DNA of 64,000 nucleotides, from NCBI GenBank assembly GCA_001972305.1, contig BDDD01000048.1:127437-191436 (forward strand). Direction: 5' to 3'. Positions 15,436 through 63,991 of this stretch are shown one piece after another. The notes beneath the pieces are model-generated. The model did no database searches. It was not told the DNA's origin and was given only the letters and a program-made list of their open reading frames with translations. The translations under genes were made by a program, and so were the position numbers. This DNA is from Cephalotus follicularis (Eukaryota; Streptophyta; Magnoliopsida; Oxalidales; Cephalotaceae). How positions within the stretch are numbered: the first letter of the stretch is position 1; each line of letters starts with the position of its first letter.

Positions 15436-15752
15436 TTTATGCAGAACATGCCTCAAAGCGTCGACGTTCACATGCAGGCGTCGGCGCTTATGTGTTTGAA
15501 TTTAAACGCGTGTTTCAACGGCTTAAGCGTCGACGCTCCAAATCCAGGCGTCTGCGCTTTATCCCCAAAATTGTGCCGTTTTCGATTTAATCGTGCTCTC
15601 TTAGCATTTCTTTAGCATTGTTCCCCAAATTGACATTACAAGGGTTTGGAAAACACCATCAAAGTGAGAAATCCATCTTTTATTAATTCCACAATAAAAA
15701 GTACACTTATTTTGTGAAATTACAACACATATAAAAAATCTCGGGCGTTACA
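15436..15752 (-). mobile_element. Truncated 3' LTR of the Tekay-like element
   Basis: Nearly identical to 25142-25458. It starts on the minus strand with TGTAACGCCCGAGATTTTTT directly after the purine tract at 15753-15767 (GAAGGAGGGGCGGA). About 2.2 kb of the LTR is missing at 15436. Confidence 0.9.
15458..15557. repeat. TCGA palindrome array 1 (G type, Tekay 3' LTR)
   Basis: Sites start at 15458, 15478, 15527 and 15548 (GCGTCGACGT, GCGTCGGCGC, GCGTCGACGC, GCGTCTGCGC). Spacings are 20, 49 and 21 bp. Confidence 0.85.
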
Positions 15753-15767
15753 TCCGCCCCTCCTTCA
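15753..15767 (-). other. Polypurine tract of the Tekay-like element
   Basis: Minus-strand GAAGGAGGGGCGGA abuts the 3' LTR and follows the sequence GAGGACGAAATTC, common just after the stop codon in Tekay elements. It is the same as at 62608-62622. Confidence 0.85.
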
Positions 15768-15775
15768 AAGAATTT

Positions 15776-16982
15776 CGTCCTCGAAATTCAAAACAAGACT
15801 AGAACAAGTGCGGGTAGCATTCTCGGATATCCTCCTCACGCTCCCAAGTTGCTTCATCCGGTCGGTCGAACTGCCATTGAACCTTGACCATGGAGATGGC
15901 TCGGTTCCTCAAAATCTATGTCTTCCAATCTAGAATCCGTACAGGCAACTCTTCACAAGATAGGTCATCTTGTACCAGAATAGTGTCATAATCCAGGACA
16001 TGTGACAGGTCCGTGATTTATCTCCTCAACATAGATACATGGAAGACGTCGTGCACGTTTGACAGTGCAGGAGGTAAGGCAAGCTGGTAGGCTACTTCCC
16101 CAACTCTCTCCAAAATCTCAAAAGGACCAATGTAGCGTGGAGCTAATTTGCCCTTTTTGCCAAACCTTCGCACGCCCTTCCATGGTGAAACCTTTAAAAA
16201 CACATGATTGCCCACACTGAATGGTCAAAGGCCTCCTCTTGACACTGTCCGCATAACTCTTCTGCCGGCTCTGAGCAGCAAGCAGCTTCTTTTTGATCGT
16301 CCTGCCGATACTGGAGTGATAGCTGTTATTATAAGAGAACTCTATCAAATAATGTGATCCTCCCAGGTACCAGCAAAATCAATAATGCAAGCCCGTAGCA
16401 TATCCTCCAAGGTCTGGATGGTACGCTCAGACTTCCCATCGACCTGAGGGTGGAAGGCAGTACTCAGGTTTAGCTTTGTATCGAAAGCTGTCTGAAATCT
16501 CATCCAGATGTTGGAAGTGAAGTTGGCATCTCTATCACATACGATGCTGACTGGAACACCGTGTAACCTCACTATCTCCTTCACATACAAATGAGCTAGC
16601 TTGCTCGCAGAATCAGTAACGTGTGTAGGCAGAAAGTGCGCTGATTTGGTGAGTCTATCCACGATAACCCACATGGCGTTGTGACGGTTCTGAGTCAGAG
16701 GAAAACCCGAAACGAAATCCATCGTAACATGTTCCCACTTCCACTTTGGAATTGGCAAAGGTTGTAGCAAACCTGCCGCTCTCTGGTGCTCGACCTAGAC
16801 GGTCTGGCAAGTCAAATGCCTTGCCACATACTCGGCGATCTCTCGTTTCATTCCAGGCCACCAGTAAGTCTTCTTCATATCTTGATACATTTTAGTGCTA
16901 CCAGGGTGGATACTGTACAGAGATTTATGAGCCCCGCGAAGTAACTCATTCTTCAACCCTAGTTCATTCGGAAGACACACAC
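15776..16982 (-). pseudogene. pol: Tekay-like integrase and chromodomain (broken)
   Basis: 16795-16980 has the zinc region ([27 protein letters not shown]) followed by a stop. 16345-16770 has the integrase core with Asp in TMDFVSGFPLT, Asp in IVCDRDANFTS and Glu in VDGKSERTIQTLEDML. A frameshift falls near 16347. Relative to 61950-62080, about 130 bp are deleted after NNSYHSSIG (the APFEALYGRKC segment is lost). 16018-16215 gives [19 protein letters not shown] and [11 protein letters not shown]; the chromodomain (VKVQWQF.RPDEATWEREEDI) is readable to about 15800 with one stop. The chromodomain is known to steer integration toward particular chromatin. Confidence 0.88.
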
Positions 16983-18133
16983 TATCACGCCCCCGTTTTC
17001 CAAATTAAGACAACATATAAAGTGGTAAGGCAATCAACATAAATAATTCAGCTCATGCAAATTACCAATGAACAAATTTCTCGATAGCGGAAGCATATAA
17101 CATAAATGAGCCGAATTTAAAATACGCATCACGCATCCCATAGTACGTGATGCCATCAAGTTTATAATAAAATCCAACATAGTGTCAGTCGCCCATAAAC
17201 GGAGCGTGAAATAATACAGTACGAGATAATAACAAAATATCCTTTGTTACAATAATCCAAAATACATAATCATTGTTCAATTACTCAAATCATAAAATAA
17301 GAGAAGTAACTAAGTCTTCTCTTTAAGCCTCCAAGCATGCTCCATATCGTATCCACTCCGTCAATCTGTTACAGTAGGGGTTAGCCTTTGTCCTCACTCG
17401 GCTAAGTAGAAAAGTTTATGAATACAGTTTAAGGTCAAGGTAATGCGTATCATGAATGAATGCATAGTGATGCAGCATGATATGTAATTTTCACAATAAA
17501 TATATCTCCGTATATACATATACAAACATATGCATGTTCACCGTACAAGAATAACTCCGTAAGTTGTATCAACACAAGCAATAAGTATGTCCCAAAAGGA
17601 ACCCGACAAACAAGTTGTTCTAACCATCGCCACCTCCTGGCCCCAACGTCAAGTGCTCTTACCCCATCCCGTTTGCGAACGGTTTGGAGCAAGTCCTCCG
17701 TATGTTGTTTAGCACGAAGGCTAACCCAACAGTCTCCGTATTGCACAGCACAATTCAAGCAATAAAGTATAATCACTTGATCAAATATAGTTGTTTAAAA
17801 TATATTACTCCGTTCACAAGTTGAAATAAGTTATAAAACTTAAAACAATACATTTGGATTGCGTAGTCAATCCTTTAAAACAGTTCTCCGTATTTGGGGA
17901 TACTTCCCCAGCCATTTCAAAAATATATAAAATCATATATTTGACAAATATATATTTTTGTACAATAATGATTAAAATAATCATGCAAGCTTTTCAAAAT
18001 GGTTAACACATTTATAAATCAACCATAATGCAATTCACAGTAATAATGCAAACATATGCTCAGAATGCACCTAGGGTTGTTGGTAATTAACCTAGGCTTA
18101 TCTCCTTCTCTAAAAGTCCCATTTCTGTTATAA

Positions 18134-18348
18134 CAGTCGGCTGTTTTTCCATAACAGTCGGCTGGACCTTGAGTCAGTCGACTGCTCTTCCCAGGCAGTC
18201 GACTTGTTCATCACGAGTACCAGGCAGTCGACTGCCTTCCTTCGACACTCGACTACTCTGGGTAACATTGCATGCGTAGTCGACTAGTATTACATGCCAG
18301 TCGACTGAAAGTTTGAGTAGTCGACTGCTTCGATTGAGCAGTCGGCTG
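18134..18348. repeat. TCGA palindrome array 2 (CAG type, solo LTR)
   Basis: Ten 10-bp sites start at 18134, 18155, 18175, 18196, 18225, 18246, 18277, 18298, 18318 and 18339. Spacings are 21, 20, 21, 29, 21, 31, 21, 20, 21. The consensus is CAGTCGACTG, with CAGTCGGCTG at both ends and TAGTCGACTA inside. The spacers show no common sequence. Confidence 0.92.
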
Positions 18349-19179
18349 TTCTGGGCTGGACAGTGACAATAACTCACTGTTAATTCATCCAATCAAGCAA
18401 TTGAACTTATTCACATGTATTCAAACCTCAGAATATCATCCATAATCATACAGTGGTCTAAAACACAACTTAATTCATGCATGATTCACTATTTTTATCA
18501 TAATTCAAATGACACCCAAATATGGCATTGCATTAAAACAATTCCAATTCTCCATTCAAAATTCAGTAAGCATGCTAGGTTATCTATCAACAATAACCAC
18601 AACAACCATACTGTAATCCACAGCCAAAAACAATTGTGCCATTCCTTTATAACACCATTACTTTTAAACTTAAAAAGCATGCATAAACTCCTCTACACTA
18701 CCCCTACCTTTGATTTCAAGTTAGAAATCGAAAGTCCACCTCTTTGTGTCTCCTTTCCAGAATCCTTGAGCTTCACAGTAGCTCCAAGAACCGTCCAGTA
18801 GCTTCAATCCAAGCTCCAAGCTTTAACAATGGAGGACCTCTCACTTCCTCACTATTTCTCTTTTAATTTCTCACTGTTTTCACTCTCAAACTCTCTGGTC
18901 CTCTCTTAACATATTATAAGGTGAGAGAGACGAAGGCAGGAAGCATTTTATGCAGTCTTCTCTCCTTCAATCTCTTTGCATGGCATAAAAGCCCATTCCT
19001 CTCACAATCCCTTGCATGCACACACACTTGTCATTTTTTATCTTTCTCTCTGTTCTTGCGGGTTCTGGCGTGGTGGTGCATGCTCAACACGTCTCATCTA
19101 TCATCATATGGCGCCTGCAAAATTCCCTATCAGTTGTAACATGTGCTTTCGTCACATGCAGATAAAACAGGGCATGATC

Positions 19180-19331
19180 CAGTCGGCTGCCTTCCCCTGG
19201 CAGTCGGCTGCTTCGCCTGGCAGTCTGTTGCCAAGTTTCACGACAGTTGGCCAGTCGACTGGTTCCTCACGCCAGTCGACTGCGTCCCCCTTTAGTCCAA
19301 CAGTCGGCTGGTATATCTCACCAGTCGGCTG
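19180..19331. repeat. TCGA palindrome array 3 (CAG type, solo LTR)
   Basis: Sites start at 19180, 19201, 19221, 19252, 19273, 19301 and 19322. Spacings are 21, 20, 31, 21, 28, 21. Four are CAGTCGGCTG, two CAGTCGACTG, and one is the weak CAGTCTGTTG. Confidence 0.9.
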
Positions 19332-19500
19332 TCCAGGCCAAAATCTCCACAATTATACTTAGAATCACACTTCTAAATGCTCTAAGTTAACTTGATATCA
19401 AGATATCAACCAGGAAATTTGCCTTTTATTAATTCAAGGTAAAGATTACATCGAGGATTACAATAATACATGAAATTGAATTTCCGAGCATTACACACAC

Positions 19501-21099
19501 GTCCCTGAAATCTCATAATACCATCAGCATGCACTCAAAAATCGGAGTCCGAGTCTAGGTTCTCCCGAATTCGTTGCAACTCCGGATCGTGTGGTTGTGC
19601 ATCCCTAATGTGATCCAGTAACACAGGCTATACTCGCATGTCGGCCACAAAGATTCCCGGTGACTGATTGAATGGAGACCACTCTTGGAAGTCTTCTAAC
19701 ATCTTCCATTGCGACACCATAGCACTGGCAACCATAGCCTTGCGGCTCAAGGCATCAGCGACTACATTCGCTTTCCCCGGGTGGTACTGAACACTGCAAT
19801 CATAATCGTTAGAGAATTCTACCCACCTGCGCTGTCTCATGTTCAATGTGTCCTGACAAAACAGGTACCTCAAACTCTTATGATCGGTAAAGATCTCAAA
19901 CTGCGCCCCATAAAGATAGTGTTTCCACTTCTGAAGGGCGAAGATAATAGCTGCAAGTTCAAGGTCATGAGTCGGGTAGTTTTCTTCATACGACTTCAGC
20001 TTCCTCGAGGCATATGCGATCACTCTGCCTCGCTGCATCAATACGCAGCCCAAACCCTTACCCGATGTATCACTGTAGATTGTAAAGCCCTCATTACCAT
20101 GAGGTAATGCCAAGAGAGGAACAGAAACTAACCGATCCTTCAGTTCACGGAAAATAGCTTCACAGTCCTCGTCCCAGACAAAAGGGGTCTTTTTCTGGGT
20201 CAGTCTAGTCAAGGGCTCGGCTATCCTTGAAAAGTTCTGGATGAACCTTCTGTAATACACCGCCAATCCAAGGAAACTGCGCAACTCCGTCACGTTCTTC
20301 GGTTGTGGCAAGTCTCGTAAAACTTTAGTCTTTGACGGATCTACCGTCAAGCCTTCCCCAGATACGATGTGACCGAGAAAGATCACATGATCAAGCCAGA
20401 ACTCACACTTGCCAAACTTGGCGTACAACCGATGTTCTCTGAGAACTTGCAATACTAGCCTCAGATTATGAGCGTGCTCCTCCTCACTCCTCGAATATAC
20501 CAGTATGTCATCGATAAATACCACAACAAACTGGTCCAGGTATGGTCAGAATACATCATTCATCAATGACATAAAAGCTGCCGGTGCATTGGTAACGCCA
20601 AACGGCATCACCAGGAACTCGTAATGACCATACCGTGTCCGGAAGTCAGTCTTCTCAATGTCTCCTTCCCTTACTCTCAGTTGGTGATAACCCGACCTCA
20701 AGTCGAGCTTGGAAAACACCCTTGATCCTTGCAACTGGTGAAACAACTCCTCAATGTGTGGTAAAGGATACTTGTTCTTGATAGTTGCCTTGTTCAACAT
20801 TCTGTAGTCGATGCAGAGTCTCATCGACCCATCCTTCTTCTTGACAAACAGTACAGGCGCACCCCACGGAGAAAAACTAGGTCGAATGAAACCCTTATCG
20901 ATTAGATTTTGTAACTGCAATTTCAGTTCCCTCAATTCTTCAGGGGCCATTCTATATGGTGCTTTAGAAATAGGAGTTGTACCTGGTATAAGATCGATAA
21001 CAAACTCCATATTTCTCTTCAGTGGCAAAGATCCCAAGTCATCAGGAAATACATCTGGAAATTCGCACACAACTGGAATTTCCTCCAAGCTCAAGCCTT
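19501..21099 (-). pseudogene. pol: Tekay-like reverse transcriptase and RNaseH (stop-interrupted)
   Basis: 20546-21094 holds the N-terminal [64 protein letters not shown] and [17 protein letters not shown] at about 20546 (expected Arg, CGA to TGA) interrupts it. 19628-20524 continues with [15 protein letters not shown] (YxDD box), [26 protein letters not shown], then RNaseH ([34 protein letters not shown]). A TAG near 19628 (expected Gln, CAG to TAG) precedes the integrase linker that is cut by the solo LTR. The stops look like C-to-T decay. Confidence 0.92.
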
Positions 21100-21100
21100 T

Positions 21101-21526
21101 CTATTTCCTTCGATCAATCACATAGGCCAGATATCCCTCGCATCCCTTCTCTAGGTATCTCGATGCTCGAATAAAGGATATGATCGGTGTCGAGAACCCT
21201 TTGTCTCCCTTGAACTGAAAAGTCATTCTATCGGGCAGACAAAAATCCACAGTTTTATTGTAACAATCCATACGAGCACGGTGTGCTGATAGCCAATCCA
21301 TCCCCAATATAACATCGAAGTCATGGATAGGCAGCAGTATCAAATCTGCATACAAGGAAACGCCTACCATAGACATCTCACAGCCTCTATATACCGAGTC
21401 AGCGTATATAGAAGTCCCGGTCGGTGTACTCACCTCAAGTATGTATGACATGCAGTCAGGAGTGACATCTAAGCAAGATGCAAAACGTGCAGATATAAAA
21501 GAATGTGATGCTCCAGAATCCATCAA
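21101..21526 (-). pseudogene. pol: Tekay-like aspartic protease
   Basis: MDSGASHSFIS is the D-S-G-A active-site motif, preceded by SVLMD-like sequence. DFDVILGMDWLSAHRA is the conserved second half, and FQFKGDKGF and GCEGYLAYVID lead toward RT. A single TAG at 21101-21103 separates it from the RT frame starting [14 protein letters not shown]. The plus-strand copy at 55644-56121 is open across this point. Confidence 0.9.
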
Positions 21527-21592
21527 TACACTAGCAGAAAAACCATATATGTACAGAGTACCTCCAACAACAGAAGTCGACTCTGGAACCTC

Positions 21593-22756
21593 TCAGTGAG
21601 CAAGTACAAAAACTCTACCTTTTGCGATGCCCTTGCCGGTGTCCTTCCTCTGTGACGGTCCTGCCGCCGTACCACTACTACTCCTCGACCCAGTAGGCGC
21701 TGTAGCAGAACTCTTCGGACAGTCCTTAACTGAGTGACCAGGTGCCCGGACCTCAGGCACCAACCATTGAAACTCGAGCAATCTTTCTATTGGTGGCCTG
21801 TACGACCACAATAATAGCAACCTCCGGATCTAGCATTACTCCCCTGGCTTGGAGTACCCAGTGAAGCTTTCTGCATGGACTTGTTCTTAGACGACTTCGT
21901 CGGAGAACCACCATCTTGACATTTCGATGATGCCGGTGGGGACTGTGTAGGACTCTGTTTACTCTGCTGTGCCTGAGCTCTCTCAGCCCGGTCTTCGCTT
22001 GATATTGTCTCCAATAGTCTTGCTTTCTGAGCAACCTCCACAAAAGTCCCCAGTTCCATAGCTCTAATTCTTCATCGAAGATCCGGTCGTCGATCTCCGA
22101 ATCTTCTTCTCTTCATCAGCTACCAGATAAGGTGAATCTCTGGCTAGCTCCATAAACCTTACTTGATATTCAGCCACAATCATCTCTCCCTGTCGCAACT
22201 CCAAGAGCTCCGTTTCTCGTCGCTCTTGCTCAATACACGGAACATAAGTCTCCAAGAACTCCGTCTGGAATCTGTCCCAAGTGCTGTCCAGTCTCTGTGA
22301 TTCCCATTTTGCCTTGACCATCTCCCACCAATGAGTGGCCTCACCCCATAGGCGGTACACAGTAAACTTCAACTTCTGAGTGTCGGTACAATCCATTACT
22401 TCAAAGATTTTCTCCAAGACTTGCAGCCATCTCTCAGCAATAGTAGCATCCAGTTCCCCCCGAAAACTGGGTGGATTCAGCCTCATTAACTTTTCAATGT
22501 CTCTCCCAAACTGGTTACCATCCTCCCCCGGGCAATGGTCGGGAGCCCTATGTTGAGGTTGAGCCTGCGCGTAGTACTGGCGCATCTCCTCCGCATTTGC
22601 CCTATTAAAGGCCATCTGTTGTTGAAAATAGTCCGTAATTCGGGCCATCGGATCCCTGTGATCTTGGGGAACATTAATTCCTTGCGGAACGTTCGCTTCC
22701 TCGGGGGCATTAGCTCCAACAACTGTAGCCCTAGAACGTGTTCTCCTTCGGTCCAT
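21593..22756 (-). pseudogene. gag: Tekay-like gag with tandem CCHC knuckles (frameshifted)
   Basis: The start ATG at 22756 gives MDRRRTRSRATVVGAN. The capsid-like core follows (FRGELDATIAERWLQVLEKIF, EATHWWEMVKAKWES, FLETYVP, LRQGEMIVAEYQVRFMELAR). A small deletion near 22090 shifts the frame. 21787-22059 reads LGTFVEVAQKARLLETISS and the knuckle CYYCGRTGH; a further shift leads to the second knuckle end GHSVKDC in 21593-21820. Intact relatives carry two knuckles in a row, as at 55272-55514. Confidence 0.9.
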
Positions 22757-22852
22757 TGGTTCCTATAAGAAGGATGACGGTTAGTCACGACTTTAGGAAA
22801 ACAATTCATTAATTGCCGAGAAAAGTATCCTAGCTAAGCATATATGGAATAT

Positions 22853-22864
22853 GCTCTGATACGA
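22853..22864 (-). other. Primer binding site, tRNA-Met type
   Basis: Minus-strand TCGTATCAGAGC lies 4 bp from the LTR end. The canonical initiator-Met site begins TGGTATCAGAGC, so there is one mismatch. The plus-strand sister at 54303-54314 is perfect. Confidence 0.85.
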
Positions 22865-24194
22865 TGTCTGTCACGCCCCCGTTTCGGTAAGACAACATGA
22901 AAGTGGTAAAGGCAATTAACACATAAATACAGCTTATGCAAACCATAAAATTTAAACTTTTATGCAAGATGTCAGTTGTGGAAGCATAAGATTCATAAGA
23001 TGAAAACTCGTAACGTGCATCCCATACTGCACGCTACACAATACAAGCACGTCATTGTTAAAAGCCCACAAAACAGAGCGTGATCACAGTACAATATTAA
23101 ATCCCATTATTAACATAACCATAAGTACATTACATCAGAAATCCTTTAACAAAACAGTTTATTACAACTTAGAAAGTAGAACCAAGAACAATAACAACAT
23201 AACGACTTGTTCTTCGTCCATGCTAGTCCAATCGGTCCACTGCATCAATCTGTAAAGTAAGGGGGTTAGCCTTTGTCCTCACTCGGCTAAGTCATAAAAG
23301 TAGCTCGGGATCAACATTAAATGCATGTCATGTAATGTGTGCATAAAGGATGCATTGTAGGAAATACCAGTTTATATATATATGAGAAATACATATATTT
23401 TAACAGTACAGTAAAATAACAGTGGGTACATATATAAGAAAATATATGTATGCAGGAATAGTAGAGTAGTGATCCGGCCAGGATCACATCCACAATCACA
23501 GTAATGTCCGAAAGGACCAACAGGCAGTACAGTATGTCCATAAAGGACCACAACAGTCAGGCAGTATGTGTAACGCCGCCAACTCCTGGCCCCATGCTAC
23601 ACTCCCAATTCGGTCCCTGCTCCTGGATACCAAGCAAGGCAATAGTACAGTATAGTGAGTCACCCACCCAAACTCCTGGCCCCTAGGTCAACCCTAGTCC
23701 CTAGGTCAACCCTACCACTAGCCAACGCTGGCAGCCTCCGCCATGCAACCAGTGGCTCAAACACAACCACATGGAAATTCACAGAGCAAGCAGTGAATCA
23801 AATAGTGAATAGTGCAGTAAACAGTACAATGGTGATCGTTTAGATCGACAGCAGACAACTCATTTTCAAATATTTCTAAGAGTAATAAATATTTGAAATA
23901 CGCATTTTAGTAGTAGAAATACCTTTGAACAATTCAGTGGTATAAATCGTTTACAGTTCGTTCGAAAATACGTTATTAACCAGTACATATTTTCATACTC
24001 AAAATAGCACATTCCTAGTTCACATATGCAATTCTAAACATCACAACTTTAGAAATCATAAACGATTTACAAAGAGTAACCAAACAGGCAGTAAACAGTG
24101 TATATGCAATGCATACAAATGCTCTAATGCATCCTAAGCAGAATCGGAATCGTCGGGTATCAAAACTGCAAAATTGTCCAAACAGGAATCTAAA

Positions 24195-24386
24195 GCGTCG
24201 GCGTTTATTCGTCAGGCATCGACGGTTTGTCCCTTAAGCGTCGACGTTCAGTTTCACAGCGTCAGCGCTTTTAGTGCCTGGGCGTCGATATCTCCTCCCT
24301 TAGACATCGACGTTTTAACACACTTCGACATATAAAACGCAGTTCACAGTGTTAAGCGTCGACGATCATTACTTAGGCGTCGACGG
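24195..24386. repeat. TCGA palindrome array 4 (G type, Tekay 5' LTR)
   Basis: Sites start at 24195, 24216, 24238, 24259, 24282, 24304, 24322 (weak), 24356 and 24377. Spacings are 21, 22, 21, 23, 22, 18, 34, 21. The consensus is GCGTCGACGC with frequent GCATCGACG changes. Confidence 0.88.
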
Positions 24387-25163
24387 TTTCAAGCAGGGGT
24401 CATCTTCTACCTCACAACATGACTAAACAGTGACATTTCCATGCATATAACATGCATTCCAACAGGTATAAAGCCCAGAAAAAGGCCACGCAATATCATA
24501 TAACACATCCAGTACAAGGTAGCATCATTTCAGTGACTAAAAATGGATCATCAAGCTATGAAATTCATGCATAAACATCACTGAACAAACACTAAGTATT
24601 GAACATGAAATACAATTATGGCTTCCCCTACCTCTGGCCTCAAGTTAGAAGCCGAAAGTCCACCTCTTTTAGTGCCCCACAGGTCACTTTGAGTCCCCAG
24701 GTACGGCTTGAAAGCTCCCTGGTTCGTCCCAGCAGTTGGTGTGCAAGCTCAAAGCTTCCTTTGCTCAACAATGGTGGTTGATCTCCCTCTCTCAAGTTCT
24801 CCTGCTCTCTTTTGTCACTCACAGTGTCATTGACCCTCTAGCTCTCTGTAACAGATGGGAGGGGTGAGAGGAGTAGAATTTTTATGCAGAAAACGTTTTG
24901 TTCTCTCTGCCAAAACCCACTAGTTTAGCCCCTCTCCTTCATGCAAGCCAGGTGCAACAGGTGTCCTTTTCTTCCCTTTCACAGGCCATGCACTCAGGGA
25001 TTCTCCCTTTGACCCATACCCTGTTGTTGCAGGTAGGTCTGGCAACAAAAGCATGCATTTGCCACGTTCTTAAGCACCTGCTAAGATGCTTGATAAGTGT
25101 CACGAAATCACCTCCCTGCGACACGTCCATCTGTTGTTATGTATATGCAGAACACGCCTCAAA

Positions 25164-25263
25164 GCGTTGACGTTCACATGCAGGCGTTGGTGCTTATGTT
25201 TTTGAATTTAAACGCGTGTTTCAACGGCTTAAGCGTCGACGCTCCAACTCCAGGCGTCAGCGC
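25164..25263. repeat. TCGA palindrome array 5 (G type, Tekay 5' LTR)
   Basis: Sites start at 25164, 25184, 25233 and 25254 with spacings 20, 49, 21, the same as array 1 in the partner LTR. A possible eroded site, ACGCGTGTTT at 25211, would split the 49-bp gap into 27 and 22. Confidence 0.85.
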
Positions 25264-25458
25264 TTTAACCCCAAAATTGTGCCATTTTCGATTTAATCTT
25301 GCTCTCTTAAAATTTCTTTAGCATTCTTCCCCAAATTGACATTACAAGGGTTAGGAAAACACCATCAAAGTCAGAAATCCATCTTTTATTAATTCCACAA
25401 TAAAAAGTACACTTATTTTGTGAAATTACAACACATATAAAAAATCTCGGGCGTTATA

Positions 25459-27465
25459 GACTACCAACTCCTCGGGTAAAACCCCTTGCTCAAAACATCT
25501 ACTCCTGCCATCCTCTGCTAAGCTATCCTCTTCGATGCTATCCGAGGACTCCTTAGCTCCTCGGATGAACCCTAAAACATAAAGCTCACAACATAAAAAC
25601 ATTCATCAAAACATAAAGTAAAACTACTTCACTGGCTAGAAACATCAAATACTTTCTTAAAAGTGTTATTACATAACAAGTTTGTCCTCTGACTAAAACA
25701 TCCTCTGTCCTACAAAAGAATAACAAAAGCTTACTTTCTATACAAAAGATATACTCTCGGCAACTCTACGACAAAAAGAAGGTAGAGGAACCCAAAAGAA
25801 TGCCCAATGCTATGCAATGCTAGACGTCTGGTCCACATCATCCGAGATGCCGAGGTCAAAAAGCTACCTTCCTAAGCTTGCTACTATTGGTTTGGAGGAT
25901 CTTCTCCTCCTGCTGCTAGGTCCTCTGCAAAAGAATTTGTGAGGGGATTAGTCCAAATAACTAAGTGACTGAGATCAAAACATCCTCTGGTACATTCCTT
26001 AAAATGAATGTGCTGAAAGAAAGCATGCCATGAACATGATTAAGGATCCCAACTGATGAAAAACAAACTATACAAACATAAATGTCATGGCTCACATATG
26101 AAGAAACGCTCAAAGGACATGAAAGAAAAGCTTACTCTTTCCTCTGCTTAACTAATGCACTAAGATACTTACAAAAGCTGAAGAAAACTTGAGATAAAAC
26201 AAAGACTTGCAGAAGTGCTCTGGAAGAGGATCCAACTTGGCCTGGAGTGTTGAGAAGGATGAACTAACTTGGAACTTACTTTTCTTTTCTATGCTTTGCT
26301 TTGCTGTTTACATAATATAGTTGCCAACTTATTATGGCGTTGAGCTAAGCTGATCTAGGCCGAAGCCTGCTTGGCAATATCTGCCGAGAACCCATGGTTC
26401 TCCTCTGAGCTTACTATTTCTTTTCTTTACTTACTTATCTATGCTGAAGGCATGACTGCCGAGGACAAGGTCCTCCTCTAGAAGACTTACCGAAAGGCTC
26501 TAATCTCTACTCTGGAAACTTAGCTCTGCTGTACTCAAACCCTAAACACCATCATAGATAATAGTGTAAAAGAGATCCAGGTAGGACCTGGGGACAGTCT
26601 CGCTCGGCTTCCCATCATACACAATAGTAGACCGAGGAGGTTGGAGCTATGTACATAGTGCTTGGCTGCACTCAAACCCTAAACACCATCATAGACAATA
26701 GTGTAAAGAAGATCCAGGTAGGACCTGGGGGCAAACTCACTCGACTTCCCATCATAGAAAATAGTAGACCGAGGAGTGGGGTTGAGCACGTACGCGTTAC
26801 CTTATCTGGAAAGTGACTAAATCACTTAGTAGAAACTTGAGCTCTAGGGCTCAGAAACTCCCTCTCTCTCTCTTCTGTCAAGGAAAACATACAAGGACGC
26901 AAGGGAAACCAATTCCCGTTAGAAAGCTCTCACCGTACTGGAACTGAAAAATGAAGGAGTTATCAAGAACATCATTAAACAACTACAAACATAGAAAGGA
27001 TGTCCCACTCACAGTTCTTAGTTGCGTTCTTACTAGCGTCCTCTGACGAGAACTACTTCTCTTTCTCCTCCTCTGCTACTGCGCCTGGCTGCTCCTCTGC
27101 TAAGCTTGGAAAGCTTCAAACTGCTGTTCTCCTCCCGCTCATCAAAGATAAGGAAGAAGAATAAGAAGAACTAGAGCTCTCTCTCACTCTAACCTGCCAA
27201 AGCTAAGGGAAAAGCCAACACCAAGAATATCTCTTGCTAAATCCAACTTAAGCCATCATTTTACCTTGGGACTTGGAAACTTCCTCAACAAGCTTTGCTC
27301 TTAAGTCCTCCAACTATTACTAATCACACTTCTCACTTGGGCTTATAACAACATTTCCACTTAACTTCCTCCTAAACTCAATTAAGTCCAAAGCCCATAA
27401 AAACAAAAATTATACACCATAGAAAAAGTTTTTCTTAGACTCCAAAACAGCTACGGGGCATTACA
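25459..27465 (-). mobile_element. X-family LTR, right copy
   Basis: Starts at GACTACCAACTCC (counterpart of 1623), directly after the Tekay-like LTR, and ends at GGGGCATTACA. 25459-26848 matches the left copy. 26849-27465 is unique to this copy and includes a CT-rich stretch near 26860-26880. The right flank TTAAT is the second half of the block's target duplication. About 550 bp are missing at the left. No frames of interest and no TCGA array. Confidence 0.82.
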
Positions 27466-27590: not shown

Positions 27591-27663
27591 GCGTCGACGG
27601 GTTAACACAAAGCGTCGACGCTTATCTTCAAAGCGCTGACAGCATAATTTAAACCATCGATGC
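27591..27663. repeat. TCGA palindrome array 6 (G type, Athila-like LTR)
   Basis: Four sites start at 27591, 27612, 27633 and 27654, each exactly 21 bp apart: GCGTCGACGG, GCGTCGACGC, GCGCTGACAG, CCATCGATGC. Confidence 0.92.
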
Positions 27664-28285: not shown

Positions 28286-28391
28286 GCGTTGACGCTTTAC
28301 TTGAGATTGTCGACGCTTAACGCCTAAAGCGCGGATCAAGTTTTCCTTCATATTTCAAAGCATCGACGCCAAAGCATTAAACCGACGACGC
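28286..28391. repeat. TCGA palindrome array 7 (G type, Athila-like LTR)
   Basis: Sites start at 28286, 28307, 28329 (weak), 28360 and 28382, with spacings 21, 22, 31, 22. Variants include GCGTTGACGC, TTGTCGACGC and GCATCGACGC. Confidence 0.8.
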
Positions 28392-29211: not shown

Positions 29212-29338
29212 CCGTCGACGCTTCTCTCGATAGCGTCGACTCTTTTCGTGCTATTTTGTAAGTTTACGTCGACGCCTTCAGTCGATGTTTTCATTGTTTG
29301 CAGTCATACCGTTGATGCCTTGACAAAGCATCGACGCT
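29212..29338. repeat. TCGA palindrome array 8 (G type, Athila-like LTR)
   Basis: Sites start at 29212, 29233, 29266, 29279 (CAGTCGATGT, part CAG type), 29309 and 29329. Spacings are 21, 33, 13, 30, 20, so this array is the least regular. Confidence 0.75.
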
Positions 29339-30433: not shown

Positions 30434-30435
30434 CT

Positions 30436-33017: not shown

Positions 33018-33718
33018 GAAGAAGAGAAAAATTTGTACAAGCTTCATGCCAAAGTGGAACCATGTATGAATGGAACATTGATGGTATGAATGAATACCAT
33101 ATTATTAATAAATTACAAGAAATGACTATGATTAGTAACGCCTACAAGATTAAAAATGCTTTAAATAAGGTAGTTGCTAATCTATTAATTGTTGGATTTA
33201 CTGGCCAATTAAAAGGATGGTGGGATAATGTTCTCACTGTTCAACAACAAACTGAAATTTTAGATTCGATTCAGATTGATGAAATAGGTGAACCAATTAT
33301 AGATTTAAACATCGAACCAATTAAAGATTCTGTAGCAACATTAATCTATAACATTACTAAATATTTTATAGGTGATCCCACATATTTAAAAGATAGAACA
33401 GCTGACCAACTTTCAAATTTCAGATGTAGGAAACTTCAATATTTTAGATGGTATAAGGATACATTCATGACTGAAGTATTACCTAGAGAAGATGCAAATC
33501 AACCATACTGGAGAGAACAATTCAAAACTGGCTTACCAACTTTATTCGCTAAAAAATTAAAAAAAATATAAAGAATCAAACAATGGTATAGTACCATATG
33601 AAACATTAACGTATGGAGATATTGTAAGTACTATTACCAAAACTGGATTAGAAATTTGTGATGACATAAAAATGAGTAAGCAAATTAAAGAAATTCAAAA
33701 ATTTACAAAAAATATTTA
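33018..33718 (+). pseudogene. Coat-protein-like frame of pararetrovirus type (decayed)
   Basis: The open part 33062-33571 (169 codons from the first ATG; in-frame codons reach back to 33020) has WNIDGMNEYHIINKLQEMT, then GFTGQLKGWWDNVL with a WW pair, LIYNITKYFIGDP, FRCRKLQYFRWYKDTFM and ANQPYWREQFKTGLP. These resemble the capsid/gag-like domain of plant pararetrovirus-type polyproteins, from family memory only. A shift in an A-run near 33560 moves the continuation (ETLTYGDIVSTITKTGLEIC) to another frame that ends in a stop at 33716-33718. Alternatives: gag of an unusual LTR element. Confidence 0.55.
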
Positions 33719-43881: not shown

Positions 43882-43964
43882 GCGTCGACGCTTTGAAGGA
43901 AGGCGTTGACGTTAATAACTGGAAACACTGAAAGCGTCGACGCTTACAAGCAAGGCATCGACGG
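43882..43964. repeat. TCGA palindrome array 10 (G type)
   Basis: Sites start at 43882, 43903, 43934 and 43955; spacings 21, 31, 21. Two are perfect GCGTCGACGC; the others are GCGTTGACGT and GCATCGACGG. Confidence 0.92.
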
Positions 43965-44734: not shown

Positions 44735-44859
44735 GCATCGACGGTTTTGAGCAAGGCATCGACGCTTTGTCTCTCGGCGTTGACGCTTTAAAGTGTGAAG
44801 GTGAGCTTGTTCGGCGCTTTAGTGTTAAGTGTCTACGCTAACATGCAAGGTGTCGATGC
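44735..44859. repeat. TCGA palindrome array 11 (G type)
   Basis: Sites start at 44735, 44756, 44777, 44807 (weak), 44829 and 44850; spacings 21, 21, 30, 22, 21. Variants: GCATCGACGG, GCATCGACGC, GCGTTGACGC, GTGTCTACGC, GTGTCGATGC. Confidence 0.85.
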
Positions 44860-51606: not shown

Positions 51607-51798
51607 TGTAACGCCTGGGATTTTCATATGTTATAATTTCACGATGTGAATATACATTATTGTGGAATTAATAAGATGATGGATTTTCCAACGTTGATGA
51701 TGTTTCCCAAACTCTAATAATATTGATTTTGGAATAAAAATGTTAAAGAAATGTTAAAAGAGCAATTTGAGATAAAACGGCGCCGTTTTGGGAGAAAC

Positions 51799-51947
51799 GC
51801 GTCGACACTCTTTTGAACGCATCGATGCCTTTGAAACAAAAAGACGCATATGAATGCATGTGCATGCACGTCGACGCCTTTGAATAACATCGACGCCTTT
51901 CAGGTAAAATGCTAAAAGCATCGATGCATGCATAAAAACGTCGACGT
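51799..51947. repeat. TCGA palindrome array 14 (G type, Tekay LTR)
   Basis: Sites start at 51799, 51819, 51868, 51887, 51918 and 51938; spacings 20, 49, 19, 31, 20. Forms: GCGTCGACAC, GCATCGATGC, ACGTCGACGC, ACATCGACGC, GCATCGATGC, ACGTCGACGT. Confidence 0.87.
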
Positions 51948-52705
51948 TTAGCGACAAATGACAGACATGTTCTTTTGCTGACAGAATAATGTGCAAGGTG
52001 ACAACTTAAGGTCACTTTTTAGGTGCCTTGGGGCACGGACGTTACGTGTTGAGCATACTGGTATGTTACCAGCCATGAAGGGGATAGAAGAGAAGAGATG
52101 GCATGACACTTGGGTGTGCATGCAGGCTGAGAGATAATCTTCATCACCTACTCCTGCAAAGGAAAATTGACAGAGCTGGGAAAGAGAGAAAAATGGGAAA
52201 ATGTACTTTGTGAGATGCATGCAACGGACAAGTAAATAAAGGGGAGAGATTCCATAGCATAAATGCTCCTCTTCTCCCCACTGGTTTGGCTAAAAACACC
52301 TGAGTGCGAACATGGAGAGAGGTTCCACCATTGTTGAGCATTTTAGAGCTTGGAACTTGAAGCTTGTGGGCTAGCAGCAATGGGACGATCCTTGGAGCTG
52401 CTGTGGCCGGTTCTAGGACTTAAAGAGGTGGACGTTCTAGTTCCTAACTTGGAACAAAAAGGTAGGGGGAGCCATAATCGTATTCTTGAGATTAATATTC
52501 ATGCCTGGACTATGGTTTTTGTGCATAGATTGCATGATTATTGAATTGTTTTTGATCACTAGATCAATTCCATGTTATGCTGGGTATGTAATATGTATAT
52601 GTATGTTGGTTTCCTGCCTTGATTACATGTTGTCTTGCATGTATGTGGATTTTGATGGTCATTGTTTGTCACGTCGTGAGGAAGAAGACGACTGGTGCTC
52701 GAAAC

Positions 52706-52967
52706 ACATCGACGTCTTTGAAGAACATCGACACATTTGGGTTATCTTCTTGGATATGGACAGATTATACATCGACGCCTAAGGTTCCTACCTTAACGCG
52801 TCGACACCTTAAGCAATACACTGACATTTAAGGTTCCATACCTTGAGCGTCGATGCGTATAAAGATGGACATCGACATCCTGAAATAGTGGAAAGCGCTG
52901 ACACTAAGGACTTGAACGTTGACGCTGAGGGACAAAGACATCGACGCCTAATAATAGACATCGACGC
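52706..52967. repeat. TCGA palindrome array 15 (G type, Tekay LTR)
   Basis: Sites start at 52706, 52725, 52769, 52798, 52818, 52847, 52869, 52895, 52916, 52938 and 52958. Spacings 19, 44, 29, 20, 29, 22, 26, 21, 22, 20. ACATCGACGC is the commonest form here. Confidence 0.87.
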
Positions 52968-54302
52968 CTTCTTGCACTGTTTGGGATTTTTCTTATATAA
53001 CGATACGAAATAGTCCCAATTCCTGTTAGGATGCATTTAAGCATTTGTATGCATTGCATATGTACTGTTTACTACCTGTTACTGACTGTTTATAAATTGA
53101 TTATGATTTCTAAAGTATTGTTACGTTAGAAATGTATATATGAGACGAAAACCACTACGTTTGGGTATTGAAATATAAAATGAATATTGTTATATTTTCG
53201 AACATACTGGGAAAGTAATTTCCACCTACTGAACTGTTAAAAGTATTTTCTATCTACTGAAAATGCATATTCCAAATGTTTATGACCTTCGAAAACATTT
53301 TGAAATGAACTGCCTATTGTCGATCTAAATGATCACTACTGTACTGTTTACTGCACCGTTTACTGTGATTTCACTGTTTGCTCTATGAATTTACTGTGTT
53401 TGTGCTTGAGCCACTAGTTGCATGGTGGAGACTGCTAGCGCCGGCTAGTGGCAGGGTTGACCTAGGAGCCAGGAGTTGGCTGGGTAACTCACTGTACTGT
53501 ACTGTTGTCTTGCTTGGTTGCCTGGAGAAGGAACTGAAGTGGGAGTGCAATGTCGTGCCAGGAGTTGGTGGCGTTACACATACTGACTACCTGTTTGTGG
53601 TCCCTTTGTGGACTTACTGTACTGTTTACTGGTCCTATTCGGACACTACAGTGCCCGTTGACATAGCCCTGGCCGGGCTACTACTGTACTATTTTTGCAT
53701 ACACATATTTTTCATATATATGGTCCTACTGTTAATTTACTGTATTGCTAAATTATATATTTTTTCATATATATATATATAAAATAGAATTTTCTACTGT
53801 ACTACATCATCTACGCATACATTTCATGACATGCATGTAATGTTAATCCCAAACAACTTTTATGACTTGGCCGAGTGAGGACAAAGACTAACCCCCTACT
53901 TTACAGATTGATGCAGTGGACCGGTGTTGGACTAGCTTGGACGAAGAACAAGCCTTATCTTAGTTGTTGTTGGTTTTATGTTCTTCCGGGTTGTAATAAA
54001 CTGTTTTGTTTTAAGGATACTGATGTACTGTACTAATGGTTATCGATTGTACTTTACTTTTTGGTTAGTGTACTGTGATCACGCTCCGTTTTGTGGGCTT
54101 TTAACAATGACAGATTTGTATTGAGTAGCGTGCAGTATGGGATGCGCGTTACGTGTTTTCAGCTTATGAGTTATAATGCTTTCGCAACTGATATCTTATT
54201 TCAAAAGTTTAAATTTTATGGTATTTGCATGAGCTGAATCTTCTTGTTAATTGCCTTTACCACTTTTCTGTGTGTCTACCTGAAACCGGGGCGTGACAAG
54301 AG

Positions 54303-54314
54303 TGGTATCAGAGC
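54303..54314 (+). other. Primer binding site, tRNA-Met type
   Basis: TGGTATCAGAGC, four bases after the LTR end; a perfect match to the initiator tRNA-Met primer sequence used by many plant gypsy elements. Confidence 0.92.
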
Positions 54315-57436: not shown

Positions 57437-57549
57437 CAGTTGGCTGTTCTCAAGAACAGTCGGTTGTTTTGGTTGAGCAGTCGACTGTTTTCTCTTAACA
57501 GTCGACTGGATGCATTTAGTAGTCGACTGTCATGAAGAACAGTCGACTG
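57437..57549. repeat. TCGA palindrome array 16 (CAG type)
   Basis: Six sites start at 57437, 57457, 57478, 57499, 57520 and 57540; spacings 20, 21, 21, 21, 20 with no gap. Three are perfect CAGTCGACTG. Confidence 0.95.
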
Positions 57550-58594: not shown

Positions 58595-58673
58595 CAGTTG
58601 ACTGTCTACAACAGGCAGTCGACTGTCCACTCTCGCCTCAGACAGTCGACTGTTCCCCTGTGACAGTCGGCTG
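58595..58673. repeat. TCGA palindrome array 17 (CAG type)
   Basis: Sites start at 58595, 58616, 58643 and 58664; spacings 21, 27, 21. It lies about 260 bp upstream of the probable TATA box of this LTR. Confidence 0.9.
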
Positions 58674-59140: not shown

Positions 59141-59273
59141 TGTAATATCCCGCTTCTATGTTGACATGTTTATATGTTTAATTGTTGGGATTATATCCTT
59201 TTGATTTATGCTATGGTTTGTGGACCTCTTTGATTTTTGTTTGAATTCCTTTTATTTTTTTTCTGGGCACAAA

Positions 59274-59403
59274 GCGCCGACGCTCTAATTAGAACCGCCA
59301 ACGCTTTGGCTGCTGTGTGACACGTTGACGCCAAAACGTGTGACTTCGACGCGTTTTGTAATTCAGTGCTTAAACGTCGACGCTTTGAGTAAGCAGTCGA
59401 CGC
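59274..59403. repeat. TCGA palindrome array 18 (G type, family C)
   Basis: Sites start at 59274, 59295, 59322, 59343, 59374 and 59394; spacings 21, 27, 21, 31, 20. The last is CAGTCGACGC, half CAG type and half G type. Confidence 0.87.
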
Positions 59404-60182
59404 TTTAGTCCTCTTCCTAAATTGTTTGGGACAGTGACAGTATTTTTGGTATGTTGGATTCTTTCTTTAAACTAGCCAAATGTTTTCCTAAATAGTAGAA
59501 TGCGTTTTTGCCCATAAGGAAATCTTTTAACATACCGAATTTTGCCATTAAACACACGATTTGTGCATTTATCAGACAAATTTCTTTTAAAACTCAAAAC
59601 TCATATCTGCATATTTCTACAAACGAACAGCAACTTTGCAAGCCATTTTCTACACTGATTTTGATGTCTTTTGAAGGTAACTTCTAAACGAAAATTGTAG
59701 CTGGTATTATGTAGTTTCTATACCACCCATTAATTCGTTTTGAAAAAGGCTAGAATTTAATTTTGATCATGTTTTTAGAGGCCTGTTGAAACTAAATTTC
59801 TGTTGTTATCTTTATATGTTCATTCATGGGTTTTATGCATAATTTGTAATATTGATGATTAAAAACAAGGAATCATGTCATTGACATATGTATATATATA
59901 TATATATATATATTACTGTTTTACGGATTATACACAGGAAAAATCAGATTATAGTTCATGATTTTGGTAAACTATTTTAAAACCATATTTTGACATGTAC
60001 ACACTATGCTAAACTTGTTATTTTCATGATTTCGTGTTTATAATCACCATATTGATAATTACAGACTCATATGACATGTTTTTAGGTTTGGTTATTGCTA
60101 TTATAACTTCTGAATATGAAAAATCTGAATTGTTCATGAAATTGAAACTGCTTTCTGCATTGGTATTATGTGCTGACGCAAA

Positions 60183-60311
60183 CCGTCGACGCTTAGTATT
60201 TGAGCGTCGCCGCTTTGTACTGTTTTGTGCTTTAGTCAGTCGACTCTTGGCTCGATGCTTTGTCCTTTTGTTCAACTAAACCGTTGACGCCTAAGAACAA
60301 ACTGTCGACGC
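60183..60311. repeat. TCGA palindrome array 19 (G type, family C)
   Basis: Sites start at 60183, 60204, 60237 (CAGTCGACTC), 60281 and 60302; spacings 21, 33, 44, 21. The position relative to the LTR start (1.04-1.17 kb) equals that of array 12 in the other family-C LTR. Confidence 0.85.
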
Positions 60312-61756: not shown

Positions 61757-62575
61757 AGGTTTCAGACAGCTTTCGGGACGAAGCTGAACCTGAGTACTGC
61801 CTTCAACCCTCAGATCGATGGGCAGTCTGAGCGTACCATCCAGACCTTGGAGGATATGCTATGGGCTTGCATTATTGATTTTGCTGGTACCTAGGAGGAT
61901 CACATTCCTTTGATAGAGTTCTCTTATAATAACATCTATCATTCCAGTATCGGCATGGCACCATTTGAAGCACTGTATGGGAGGAAGTGCAGATCTCCTG
62001 TATGTTGGGACGAGGTCGGGGAGCGACCTTTACTCAGGACTGAGTTAGTGGAGGAAACTTCAGAAAAGATCAGGACGATCAAAAAGAAGCTGATTGCTGC
62101 TCAGAGCCGGCAGAAGAGCTATGCGGACAGTGTCAAGAGGAGGCCTTTGACCTTCAGTGTGGGCGATCATGTGTTCTTAAAGTTCTCACCATGGAAGAGC
62201 GTGCAAAGGTTTGGGAGAAAGGGAAAATTAGCTCCTCACTACATTGGTCCTTTTGAGATTTTGGAGAGAGTTGGGGAGGTAGCCTACCAGCTTGCCTTAC
62301 CTCCTGCACTGTCAAACGTGCATGACGTCTTCCATGTATCTATGCTGAGGAGATATATCCCAGACCCGTCACATATCCTGGATTATGATGCTGTTCCGGT
62401 ACAAGATGACCTATCTTGTGAAGAGTTGCCGATGCGGATTCTAGATTGGAAGACGCAGATTTTGAGGAACCGAGCCATCTCCATGGTCAAGGTTCAATGG
62501 CAGTTCCACCGACCGGATGAAGCAACTTGGGAGCGTGAGGAGGATATCCGAGAACTCTACCCACACTTGTTCTAG
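61757..62575 (+). pseudogene. pol: Tekay-like integrase C-terminal half and chromodomain
   Basis: It starts inside the integrase core (RFQTAFGTKLNLSTAF; Glu in DGQSERTIQTLEDML). One TAG at about 61892 replaces the Trp of GTWEDHI. The long open frame 61910-62575 (221 codons) holds [75 protein letters not shown], and the chromodomain VKVQWQFHRPDEATWEREED. The N-terminal two catalytic Asp are lost with the family-C LTR junction. Best-preserved Tekay C-terminus in the window. Confidence 0.92.
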
Positions 62576-62607
62576 TATCGTTTTGAATTTCGAGGACGAA
62601 ATTCCTT

Positions 62608-62622
62608 TGAAGGAGGGGTGGA
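62608..62622 (+). other. Polypurine tract
   Basis: TGAAGGAGGGGTGGA directly before the LTR start at 62623, after GAGGACGAAATTCC. Same as 15753-15767 on the other strand. Confidence 0.9.
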
Positions 62623-62799
62623 TGTAACGCCCAAAAATTTCATGTATTGTAATTTCACAATGTAAATGTACCTTATTTGTGGAATTCATAAAATAATAGA
62701 TTTTCTGAATTTGATGATGTTTTCCCAAACTTCGATGATGTTGCTTCTAAATCAGTTAATGTACTTAGAAGTGTGTTTACCTTGTGGATACATCAAGTG

Positions 62800-62950
62800 C
62801 AGTCGACTGGTACGTTTGACTAGCCGGCTGGGTGTCTGTGTCTTGGAACAGTCGAGTGGTGGGATGAACCAGTCGACTGGCCAACTGTCGAGCCATATGG
62901 TAACGAACTGCCAGACGAGCAGCCGGCTGTTGGGTGTGGACAGCCGACTG
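62800..62950. repeat. TCGA palindrome array 20 (CAG type)
   Basis: Sites start at 62800, 62821, 62849, 62870, 62920 and 62941; spacings 21, 28, 21, 50, 21. Forms: CAGTCGACTG, TAGCCGGCTG, CAGTCGAGTG, CAGTCGACTG, CAGCCGGCTG, CAGCCGACTG. Confidence 0.9.
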
Positions 62951-63774
62951 GATTGTGCTCTGTTTTATTGCATGTGACGAGATCACATGTAGCCACTGAT
63001 AAGAGCACCCTGCAGGCACCATCTGATGATAGATGAAACGTGTATGTCATGCACATGACTGCTAGAACCTGCAGAAACTGAAGGGAAGGGTGGATTGACA
63101 TGTGTGTGTAAATGCAAGTGATAGAAAGGAAAATGGCATTTACTGCCATGTGAGAGGAGCTAGGGAAGAGAGGGAGAGAAACCCCCTGCATAAAACGTCT
63201 TCCCTCATCTCCTTCGTCCTGGTACTGAAGAGCCTAAGAACCAAAGTGGATAGTAGAGAAAAACGCAGAGAAAAGAGGGAAGGGAGTGTTCTGCATTGTT
63301 GAAGCTTGGAGCTCGGGTTGGATCTTTTGGGCTGTTCTTGGAGCTGCTGGGCTTGGAGTTGGAACTTCTAAGGAGCCCGAAACGTCACTGTTGGAACACA
63401 AAGAGGTGGACTTACAGATTCCTAACTTGGGATCAAAAGGTAGGGGAAGTTATGATGGTATTTTGAACTTAATGTTACTGCATGTTATATGATTTGAACG
63501 CACTAGTTGCATGAGTTGTAGTTACTGATTTTAAGACGTGGTTGATACTGTTTTCCATCTGCTATGCTTGCTACTGAGAATCAAATGAGTTTATGTGCAT
63601 GCATGTTGAACCTTATCATGGTGTTGACTTGCATGATGAAATGTATGTTGGATGTGGTATTATATGGACGATATGATAACCTGTAGTTGTGTTTCTGTCC
63701 TTGAGCTTGAATTCTCTGTTTACAACGATCCGTTGGAGTAGATAGATCGATTTGCATGCAACTGGTTTGCGGGG

Positions 63775-63991
63775 AAGCCGACTGTCGAAGGAAGACAGCC
63801 GACTACTCAATGGAACCAGTCGACTGTCAATGGAAAGCAGTCAACTGTTCATACTTCATCCTGCCAAGAAAGTGGAGGGAAGTGTGATCTGGGTAATACT
63901 TTTGAACGGGTGTGCAGTAACAGTCGACTGTTGAAGGATAACAGTCGACTGCCTAATGGACAGTCGACTGGTAGAAGGAACCAGCCGACTA
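63775..63991. repeat. TCGA palindrome array 21 (CAG type, to window end)
   Basis: Sites start at 63775, 63796, 63817, 63838, then 63921, 63942, 63961 and 63982. Spacings 21, 21, 21, 83, 21, 19, 21; 83 is close to four 21-bp steps. It may continue beyond 64000. Confidence 0.92.

Follow-up and report, generated by a model that had tools for sequence, protein, structure and literature searches.

The window analyzed here is a 64,000-bp stretch of the Cephalotus follicularis genome (assembly GCA_001972305.1, 1,577,397,061 bases; contig BDDD01000048.1, positions 127,437 to 191,436 of the forward strand) and consists of nested plant long terminal repeat (LTR) retrotransposon DNA. Between 15,458 and 63,991 it carries arrays of a short palindrome-like site with the core GTCGAC and either CA/TG or GC/GC arms, denoted CAG (CAGYCGACTG) and GCG (AAnCGTCGACGCYT), respectively. 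Using a rule-based array caller to define sites, arrays and neighbor distances in the window, we identified 19 arrays (112 sites, 93 neighbor distances), all of them within 10 copies of LTRs or repeats. The original prediction, made by eye, had placed 21 arrays in LTRs, with 82 of 118 distances at 19–23 bp; the location in LTRs, the extent and the peak at 21 bp all stand, and the counts are replaced by 19 arrays and 65 of 93 distances.

Forty-two of the 93 distances are exactly 21 bp, 14 fall at 27–33 bp, 11 at 43–53 bp, and 3 elsewhere; sites are grouped as pairs or runs with 20–22 bp steps, followed by gaps of 27–35 or about 43–53 bp. The window contains GTCGAC 52 times, compared with a mean of 4.8 and a maximum of 12 in 100 Markov-1 simulations. 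All 52 copies lie beyond position 15,400, and none in the first 15.4 kb, which is occupied by elements we take to be of Athila type. Pairs of GTCGAC spaced 19–23 bp apart, allowing up to one mismatch, number 55 (simulated mean 1.8, maximum 5; the site count predicts 5.0). In a ranking of the 64 palindromic hexamers in the window, GCCGGC, with 6 pairs, stands slightly above GTCGAC by ratio. The window arrays are not independent of each other, as several LTRs are related and share one layout, and the LTR denoted L1L below nearly duplicates the start of L1R.

The sites are found throughout the genome. Exact CAGTCGACTG (CAG) occurs 197,377 times and exact GCGTCGACGC (GCG) 73,186 times, versus 939 and 121 occurrences of the reversed words used as controls (enrichment about 210-fold and 605-fold), making CAG the commoner type. 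The whole-genome spacing count, which covers exact CAG pairs at 21 bp, yielded 25,896 pairs, compared with 89 for the reversed-pattern control and about 25 to be expected if the sites were uniformly scattered, in agreement with the predicted 21-bp spacing. We also examined a random sample of 20 stretches of the same genome (200 kb, 5,010 N), picked by contig number and coordinate alone. It contains 23 arrays with 119 sites, and 68 of 96 distances fall at 19–23 bp. GTCGAC is found 75 times (15.3 expected), CAGTCGACTG 25 times (0.07 expected) and GCGTCGACGC 3 times (0.01 expected); CAGTCGACTG has the top enrichment among palindromic 10-mers occurring at least 4 times, with ATATATATAT and TATATATATA outnumbering it by raw count. 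Counted as exact words, GTCGAC ranks first in this sample for pairs at 19–23 bp (24 pairs, 0.14 expected, ratio 171; the next hexamer has a ratio of 20 on 1 pair), with no GTCGAC pairs at 10–17 or 24–26 bp. Chance and base composition are ruled out as the cause of the arrays by the simulations and the random sample. The arrays are real, abundant, genome-wide and under constraint.

Neighbor distances on one further contig (C1) show the same step. Among its first 100 exact CAG sites, 37 of 99 distances fall at 19–22 bp, 6 at 27–28 bp and none at 29–40 bp; among 89 exact GCG sites, 8 distances fall at 19–21 bp and none at 22–40 bp. Of the peaks near 21 and 31 bp that were to be sought genome-wide, the one at 21 bp is borne out by the excess of CAG pairs, and the exact GCG sites of contig C1 have none near 31 bp. 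Site pairs separated by 700–1500 bp on this contig concentrate at 1050–1249 bp for CAG (26/42), resembling the two-zone arrangement in the window that is described below, and at 850–1049 bp for GCG (14/22). One sampled stretch (L043) contains a young LTR pair (2649–4735 and 7355–9441, 97.5% identical) with the same 8-site CAG array in each copy and, judged by eye, gag- and protease-like open reading frames (ORFs) between them.

The longer gaps differ by site type. In CAG arrays, 11 of 12 fall at 27–29 bp and one at 31 bp (mean 28.25 bp, or 2.69 turns at 10.5 bp per turn), whereas GCG gaps center on 31 bp (mean 31.2, n = 13, range 27–35); the all-pairs count over the window, with up to one mismatch, has no pairs at either 30 or 32 bp. 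A class of distances around 30 bp had been read as three helical turns, with the sites facing one side of the helix. Three turns describe the GCG gaps, but the 28-bp CAG gap sets neighboring groups roughly 110 degrees apart, so the sites do not all lie on one side, and strict one-face phasing for every step is ruled out by the type-specific gaps.

Conservation within the sites is uneven. Among 51 CAG sites, A2 (51/51), G3 (50), C8 (48) and T9 (51) are retained, and position 4 is T (35) or C (16). GCG sites span about AAnCGTCGACGCYT and are weak at the left outer base, which is the only one of the two outer bases changed in 30/56 sites, compared with 0/56 for the right one. Full palindromic symmetry, as first proposed, therefore fails; the sites are oriented along the LTR and are pseudo-palindromic. 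Symmetric double changes are barely above chance for the GCG outer pair (3/56, P = 0.028) and the CAG outer pair (3/51, P = 0.096), and at chance for the other eight position pairs (P = 0.41 or more). C>T or G>A accounts for 65 of 97 deviations among the GCG sites and for 24 of 51 among the CAG sites. Such changes result from the decay of methylated CpG and CHG sites, a process with which the deviations appear to agree.

Most carriers appear to be LTRs of one lineage. Element 1, which we call Tekay-like, lies on the reverse strand with its coding remnants at 16348–22762 in the order gag, reverse transcriptase (RT), RNase H, integrase. This is the Ty3/gypsy gene order, based on ORFs and Pfam matches, of which that to integrase scores 28.4 bits against a Pfam cut-off of 32.6. 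Its 5′ LTR (L1R, 22869–25458, reverse) has GCG arrays at 25164–25263 (3 sites) and 24195–24386 (8 sites) and is followed near 22853 by an iMet-type primer-binding site (PBS) with 1 mismatch; its truncated 3′ LTR (L1L, 15438–15752, reverse), 95% identical to the start of L1R, has one GCG array (15458–15557, 4 sites) and is marked by the polypurine tract (PPT) AAGGAGGGG, then TGTAACGCCC. Inside its pol region lies a solo LTR (L3, 16983–19495, reverse) with GTGTG at both flanks and CAG arrays at 19180–19331 (6 sites) and 18134–18348 (10 sites). A second 5′ LTR (L2L, 51607–54298, forward) carries GCG arrays at 51799–51947 (6 sites) and 52706–52967 (9 sites) and has an exact PBS, TGGTATCAGAGC, at 54303; for both L1R and L2L we take the PBS word to be complementary to initiator tRNA-Met. 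L2R (62623–64000, forward), which is cut by the window end, is marked by the PPT AAGGAGGGG, then TGTAACGCCC, and has CAG arrays at 62800–62950 (6 sites), 63775–63847 (4) and 63921–63991 (4). Beside it is the 3′ end of an integrase ORF (61895–62572, forward; SH3_Tf2-1, PF24626, 5.3e-28) with a weak chromodomain match (PF00385, 0.0005, 20.4 bits against a curated cut-off of 25.1, profile positions 13–46 of 53).

The remaining LTRs are L4 (56050–58821, reverse, 3′ end approximate), with CAG arrays at 58595–58673 (4 sites) and 57437–57549 (6 sites) and a start marked by the PPT-like AAGTAGGGG, then TGTAA; L5 (59141–61756, forward, ending GGGGGTGTTACA), with degenerate GCG arrays at 59274–59403 and 60170–60311 that include some CAG-like left arms; and L8, an LTR part (45256–47200, reverse, upper bound approximate), with a CAG array at 46686–46913 (11 sites), the TATA-like TATATAAAT 141 bp past that array and the end GGGGGTGTTACA at 45256. 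Two further copies, L6 (28240–29560, forward; GCG arrays 28286–28391 and 29212–29337) and L7 (43640–44900, reverse; GCG arrays 44735–44859 and 43882–43964), both with approximate ends, are 66% alike over 1.3 kb. They belong to an unclassified promoter-bearing repeat without any link to the Tekay-like lineage, and TATAAAT lies 90 and 123 bp past the first array, respectively. Seven LTRs (L1L, L1R, L2L, L2R, L3, L4, L5) begin with TGTAA or a near variant. L1, L2 and L3 can be linked either with Ty3/gypsy coding remnants or, through sequence likeness, with one another; the lineage of L5 and L8 is judged from partial LTR similarity only (L8 to L5 and to the L043 LTR pair). From this evidence we class the carriers as Ty3/gypsy Tekay-like LTRs plus the unclassified promoter repeat. 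In the Tekay-like LTRs the arrays occupy two zones, at about +134 to +340 and +1030 to +1384 from the LTR start (for four LTRs, the start used by the script is 1–2 bp inside the true one). Among the best 120 of 7,997 relatives of one RT–RNase H ORF, proteins of C. follicularis itself have the highest identity (76%), and those of Tanacetum and Solanum the best E-values. Viral contigs contained no exact CAG pair 20–22 bp apart and, by the patterns used, no relative of this ORF.

Several other features of the window were noted. Small GCG-type clusters at 27591–27663 and 31127–31606 are assigned to no LTR and stand outside the rule-based counts. Both L6 (28791–28992) and L7 (44145–44288) have 51-bp tandem repeats downstream of their TATA-like boxes. 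The segments 1623–2885 and 25459–26738 are 93% identical, one abutting an Athila-type LTR and the other L1R. An ORF at 33020–33568 (forward) matches DUF7746 (1.2e-30) and a Caulimovirus coat domain (7.6e-07) and is a probable endogenous pararetrovirus relic.

Comparison of related LTRs revealed that palindromes are conserved while spacers drift, as had been predicted. In zone 1 of L3 and L2R, which can be compared in register without alignment, 55 of 60 palindrome positions are identical, versus 22 of 51 spacer positions (four of the five spacers, of equal length, the unequal one being omitted; Fisher P = 2.5e-8). In zone 2, where 8 of the 10 L3 sites had a partner and 4 of 7 spacers were used, the counts are 72/80 and 14/44. 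Aligned identities for the same pair are 0.83–0.92 in palindromes, 0.46–0.51 in spacers and 0.56–0.57 outside the arrays, and the order is similar for L1R–L2L (0.79, 0.45–0.46 and 0.68–0.69 in the rest of the LTR), L6–L7 (0.80–0.81, 0.63–0.65 and 0.72) and L3–L4 (0.61–0.67, 0.37–0.47 and 0.45–0.46). Gap openings per 100 columns are 0–1.0 in palindromes, 1.4–3.6 in spacers and 1.5–2.1 elsewhere. We also compared spacers with each other, using the inner 7 bp of 11-bp spacers. Likeness within arrays is 0.39 in the window (0.338 expected, P = 0.018) and 0.321 in the random sample (0.295 expected, P = 0.11); between arrays it is 0.282 (0.278 expected, P = 0.23) and 0.274 (0.251 expected, P = 0.002). 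Spacers are thus nearly, not wholly, unrelated: the claim that they share no sequence holds apart from a slight likeness within arrays, and in neither data set do they align well with each other, as the units of a satellite in decay would. With hardly any sequence in common among the spacers and with the palindromes conserved, the arrays are no plain decayed satellite, and the spacer tests in window and sample rule out such a satellite as the full account.

The CAG and GCG arrays sit in LTRs that are relatives by similarity. L2R (CAG) is about 77–78% identical to L1R and L2L (GCG) within the initial 120 bp and about 67% in another stretch, and zone-1 layouts nearly coincide across types (L1L, GCG, 21/49/20 bp; L2L, GCG, 20/49/19; L3, CAG, 21/51/21; L2R, CAG, 21/50/21). 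At the four matched zone-1 sites, the arms are GC/AC on the left and GC/AC on the right in the one type and CA and TG in the other, so that all arm bases differ; zone 2 differs in type as well, without site-by-site matching across types. Nineteen of the 23 sampled arrays are single-type, and the other four have one odd site each, three of these in L5-like LTRs. Site specificity apparently switched in concert between related LTR families. Independent point changes would need to go in the same direction at many sites, leaving two conceivable routes: a single reader may have selected the change, or a unit may have spread before its spacers drifted.

We consider it an evenly balanced proposition that the arrays in Tekay-like LTRs form a cis-regulatory lattice to which a dimeric DNA-binding protein attaches. 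We infer binding by a dimer, as the original prediction did; a dimeric, sequence-specific protein would bind the double-stranded lattice cooperatively, and would most likely be a host transcription factor driving or conditioning LTR transcription, with the arrays acting as enhancer modules. The arm switch between families would then reflect a changed protein partner or a change in its specificity. TATA-like words lie within 160 bp (27–160) downstream of 6 of 16 arrays and upstream of 1 (L1L and the two L2R zone-2 arrays, of the 19, being omitted). Tentatively, and with some doubt, we extend the proposal: a large share of the plant's LTR retrotransposons may carry a fixed-pitch putative protein-binding lattice, an enhancer or anti-silencing platform whose specificity changed concertedly from one of CAGTCGACTG and GCGTCGACGC to the other throughout entire arrays, and whose some 270,000 exact sites would record co-evolution of family and partner.

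A number of observations weigh against the cis-regulatory lattice. The TATA link is weak, as about 2.6–2.8 of 16 arrays are expected by density to have such a word and 10 of 16 have none after them, and the second zone, 0.9–1.1 kb further in, is unexplained by a simple upstream enhancer. The 28-bp CAG gap does not fit binding from one helix face. L5-type LTRs have mixed arms, those of L5 itself on the left. The sharp peak at 21 bp demonstrates constraint on spacer length; the gap-opening test does not, as spacers lack a clear deficit of openings relative to the remaining LTR sequence. Array alignments are steered by the cores, and a slip of one unit would lower spacer identity, making zone 1 the safer case. 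In addition, LTR copies are relatives, so their spacings cannot count as independent trials; nor can the sites of a single LTR.

Four other explanations were weighed. The arrays may have been born by duplication of a 21-bp unit and now persist by inertia, as a decayed tandem repeat. Related layouts do look like gain or loss of about 21-bp units, the sites share one orientation, Tandem Repeats Finder (TRF) reports a period of 20–21 bp over parts of two arrays, and the weak within-array spacer likeness in the window points the same way. Between-array likeness is, however, at chance in the window and just above it in the sample. For comparison, a scan of prokaryotic contigs returned 37 loci, of which 23 have at least two 21-bp spacers, and there the spacers are 79% alike (13 bp compared). 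These loci (L001, L002, L007, L016, L019 and others, several of them in Treponema and Tannerella metagenome-assembled genomes) repeat AGTCGACT every 21 bp with similar spacers and look like ordinary tandem repeats. As palindromes are kept where spacers are lost, duplication may explain the origin of the arrays but not their upkeep, and as a complete explanation we regard it as rather improbable. A related question is whether the constraint lies in RNA, with neighboring palindromes pairing in the transcript as hairpins or small interfering RNA (siRNA) sources, the structure being itself the function or a cue for host recognition, as proposed for maize Sireviruses. CAG arrays fold more strongly than dinucleotide-shuffled sequence (z −2.3 to −7.1 in 7 arrays) and GCG arrays less strongly (10 arrays, z −0.9 to −5.0), compared with averages of −0.98 to 0.46 and single values down to −5.4 for control windows in the same LTRs. 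Palindromes yield such folds anyway, hairpins do not require a sharp 21-bp pitch, and neighbors show no significant covariation (Watson–Crick P = 0.52 and 0.82; with G–U, 0.07 and 0.67). Neighbor RNA pairing is disfavored as the constraint, and we judge this account improbable.

The other two explanations retain a DNA-binding protein. VANDALs are DNA transposons, and an anti-silencing lattice like that of their VANC proteins would be bound by a protein encoded by the element or a related one, which lifts silencing, motif and protein co-evolving per family. The difference between CAG and GCG and the mostly pure arrays resemble VANDAL motif arrays. By eye we recognized no extra ORF outside gag–pol in a few element bodies, an inspection that was non-exhaustive, most ORFs not having been compared with a library; we hold this explanation unlikely. 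RYCGAC is the binding site of CBF factors, and a monomeric stress factor of the AP2/ERF, CBF/DREB-like kind could read it in LTR orientation, the palindrome being a doubled site. RYCGAC is retained in LTR orientation alone at 25 sites and in reverse alone at 10 (P = 0.017), and T4>C changes outnumber A7>G changes (23 versus 6, P = 0.002). Forty-three sites retain it in both orientations, but 29 of 107 match it in neither, and the conserved arms past the hexamer lie outside such an element. The bias may serve as a lead towards AP2/ERF factors and no more, being a special case of the cis-regulatory lattice; as a separate explanation it seems very unlikely.

Motif arrays of comparable kind are known from other transposable elements (TEs). 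In VANDALs, short-motif tandem arrays lie in non-coding regions, differ between related families and evolve synchronously, and the VANC system makes clear that such arrays can change together with the protein that binds them (PMC5735166, PMC10398659). The present arrays likewise consist of short motifs, lie in non-coding parts of TEs and change concertedly from one related family to another. Unlike the present sites, VANDAL motifs are non-palindromic, and VANDALs encode VANC, of which our non-exhaustive inspection found none here. In maize Sireviruses, LTR palindromes are small-RNA hotspots (Bousios et al. 2016, via PMC5311732 and PMC10760457). Both systems have palindrome clusters in the cis region of the LTR with strong predicted RNA structure; the maize elements belong to another superfamily and have another motif (CACCGGAC...GTCCGGTG).

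The closest parallel is with Sireviruses at large, which the original prediction overlooked in finding no named element to match. These Ty1/copia elements have palindromic repeated motifs (RM boxes) in their LTRs, upstream of the TATA box and differing per family (Bousios et al. 2010, PMC2829016). As in that system, the present palindromes are high-copy, clustered in LTRs, family-specific and set in diverged flanks with a putative promoter downstream; the TCGA center also occurs in the Vitis box CGGTCGACCG and the Tnd-1 box ACAATCGATTGT. The Sirevirus threshold of at least 8 palindromic boxes per element is reached in L3 (16), the L2R part (14) and L8 (11). Sirevirus boxes start 200–400 bp into the LTR and extend over 300–500 bp, with a TATA box shortly after; here there are two zones in most LTRs, at the positions given above, and a TATA-like word follows 6 of 16 arrays and precedes 1, against about 2.6–2.8 expected by density. 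The Sirevirus signature is CGG-CCG rather than a GTCGAC core, although the published exception, Tnd-1, also lacks CGG-CCG, and in the available excerpts of that paper we noticed no fixed pitch. The carriers here have Ty3/gypsy gene order, and Sirevirus membership is ruled out as RT precedes integrase in element 1, the reverse of Ty1/copia. In those same excerpts the RM motif is termed Sirevirus-specific within a Ty1/copia comparison that mentions Ty3/gypsy in passing. In literature searches, the titles and abstract openings of the matches listed showed no palindromic array of this kind in Ty3/gypsy LTRs, and among the matches listed for the exact 10-mer none is about LTRs by title. As far as these searches go, palindromic LTR arrays are new for Ty3/gypsy, and partly anticipated by the Sirevirus work. 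If the cis-regulatory lattice is right, such arrays extend beyond the Sireviruses, having either arisen in the second great plant LTR superfamily or spread to it, and a pitch rule that can be measured and a naturally occurring switch of specificity become available. One could then ask whether the reader protein turns the elements on or flags them for silencing, with a direct route to the protein that reads such arrays, the question posed for Sireviruses in 2010 (PMC2829016).

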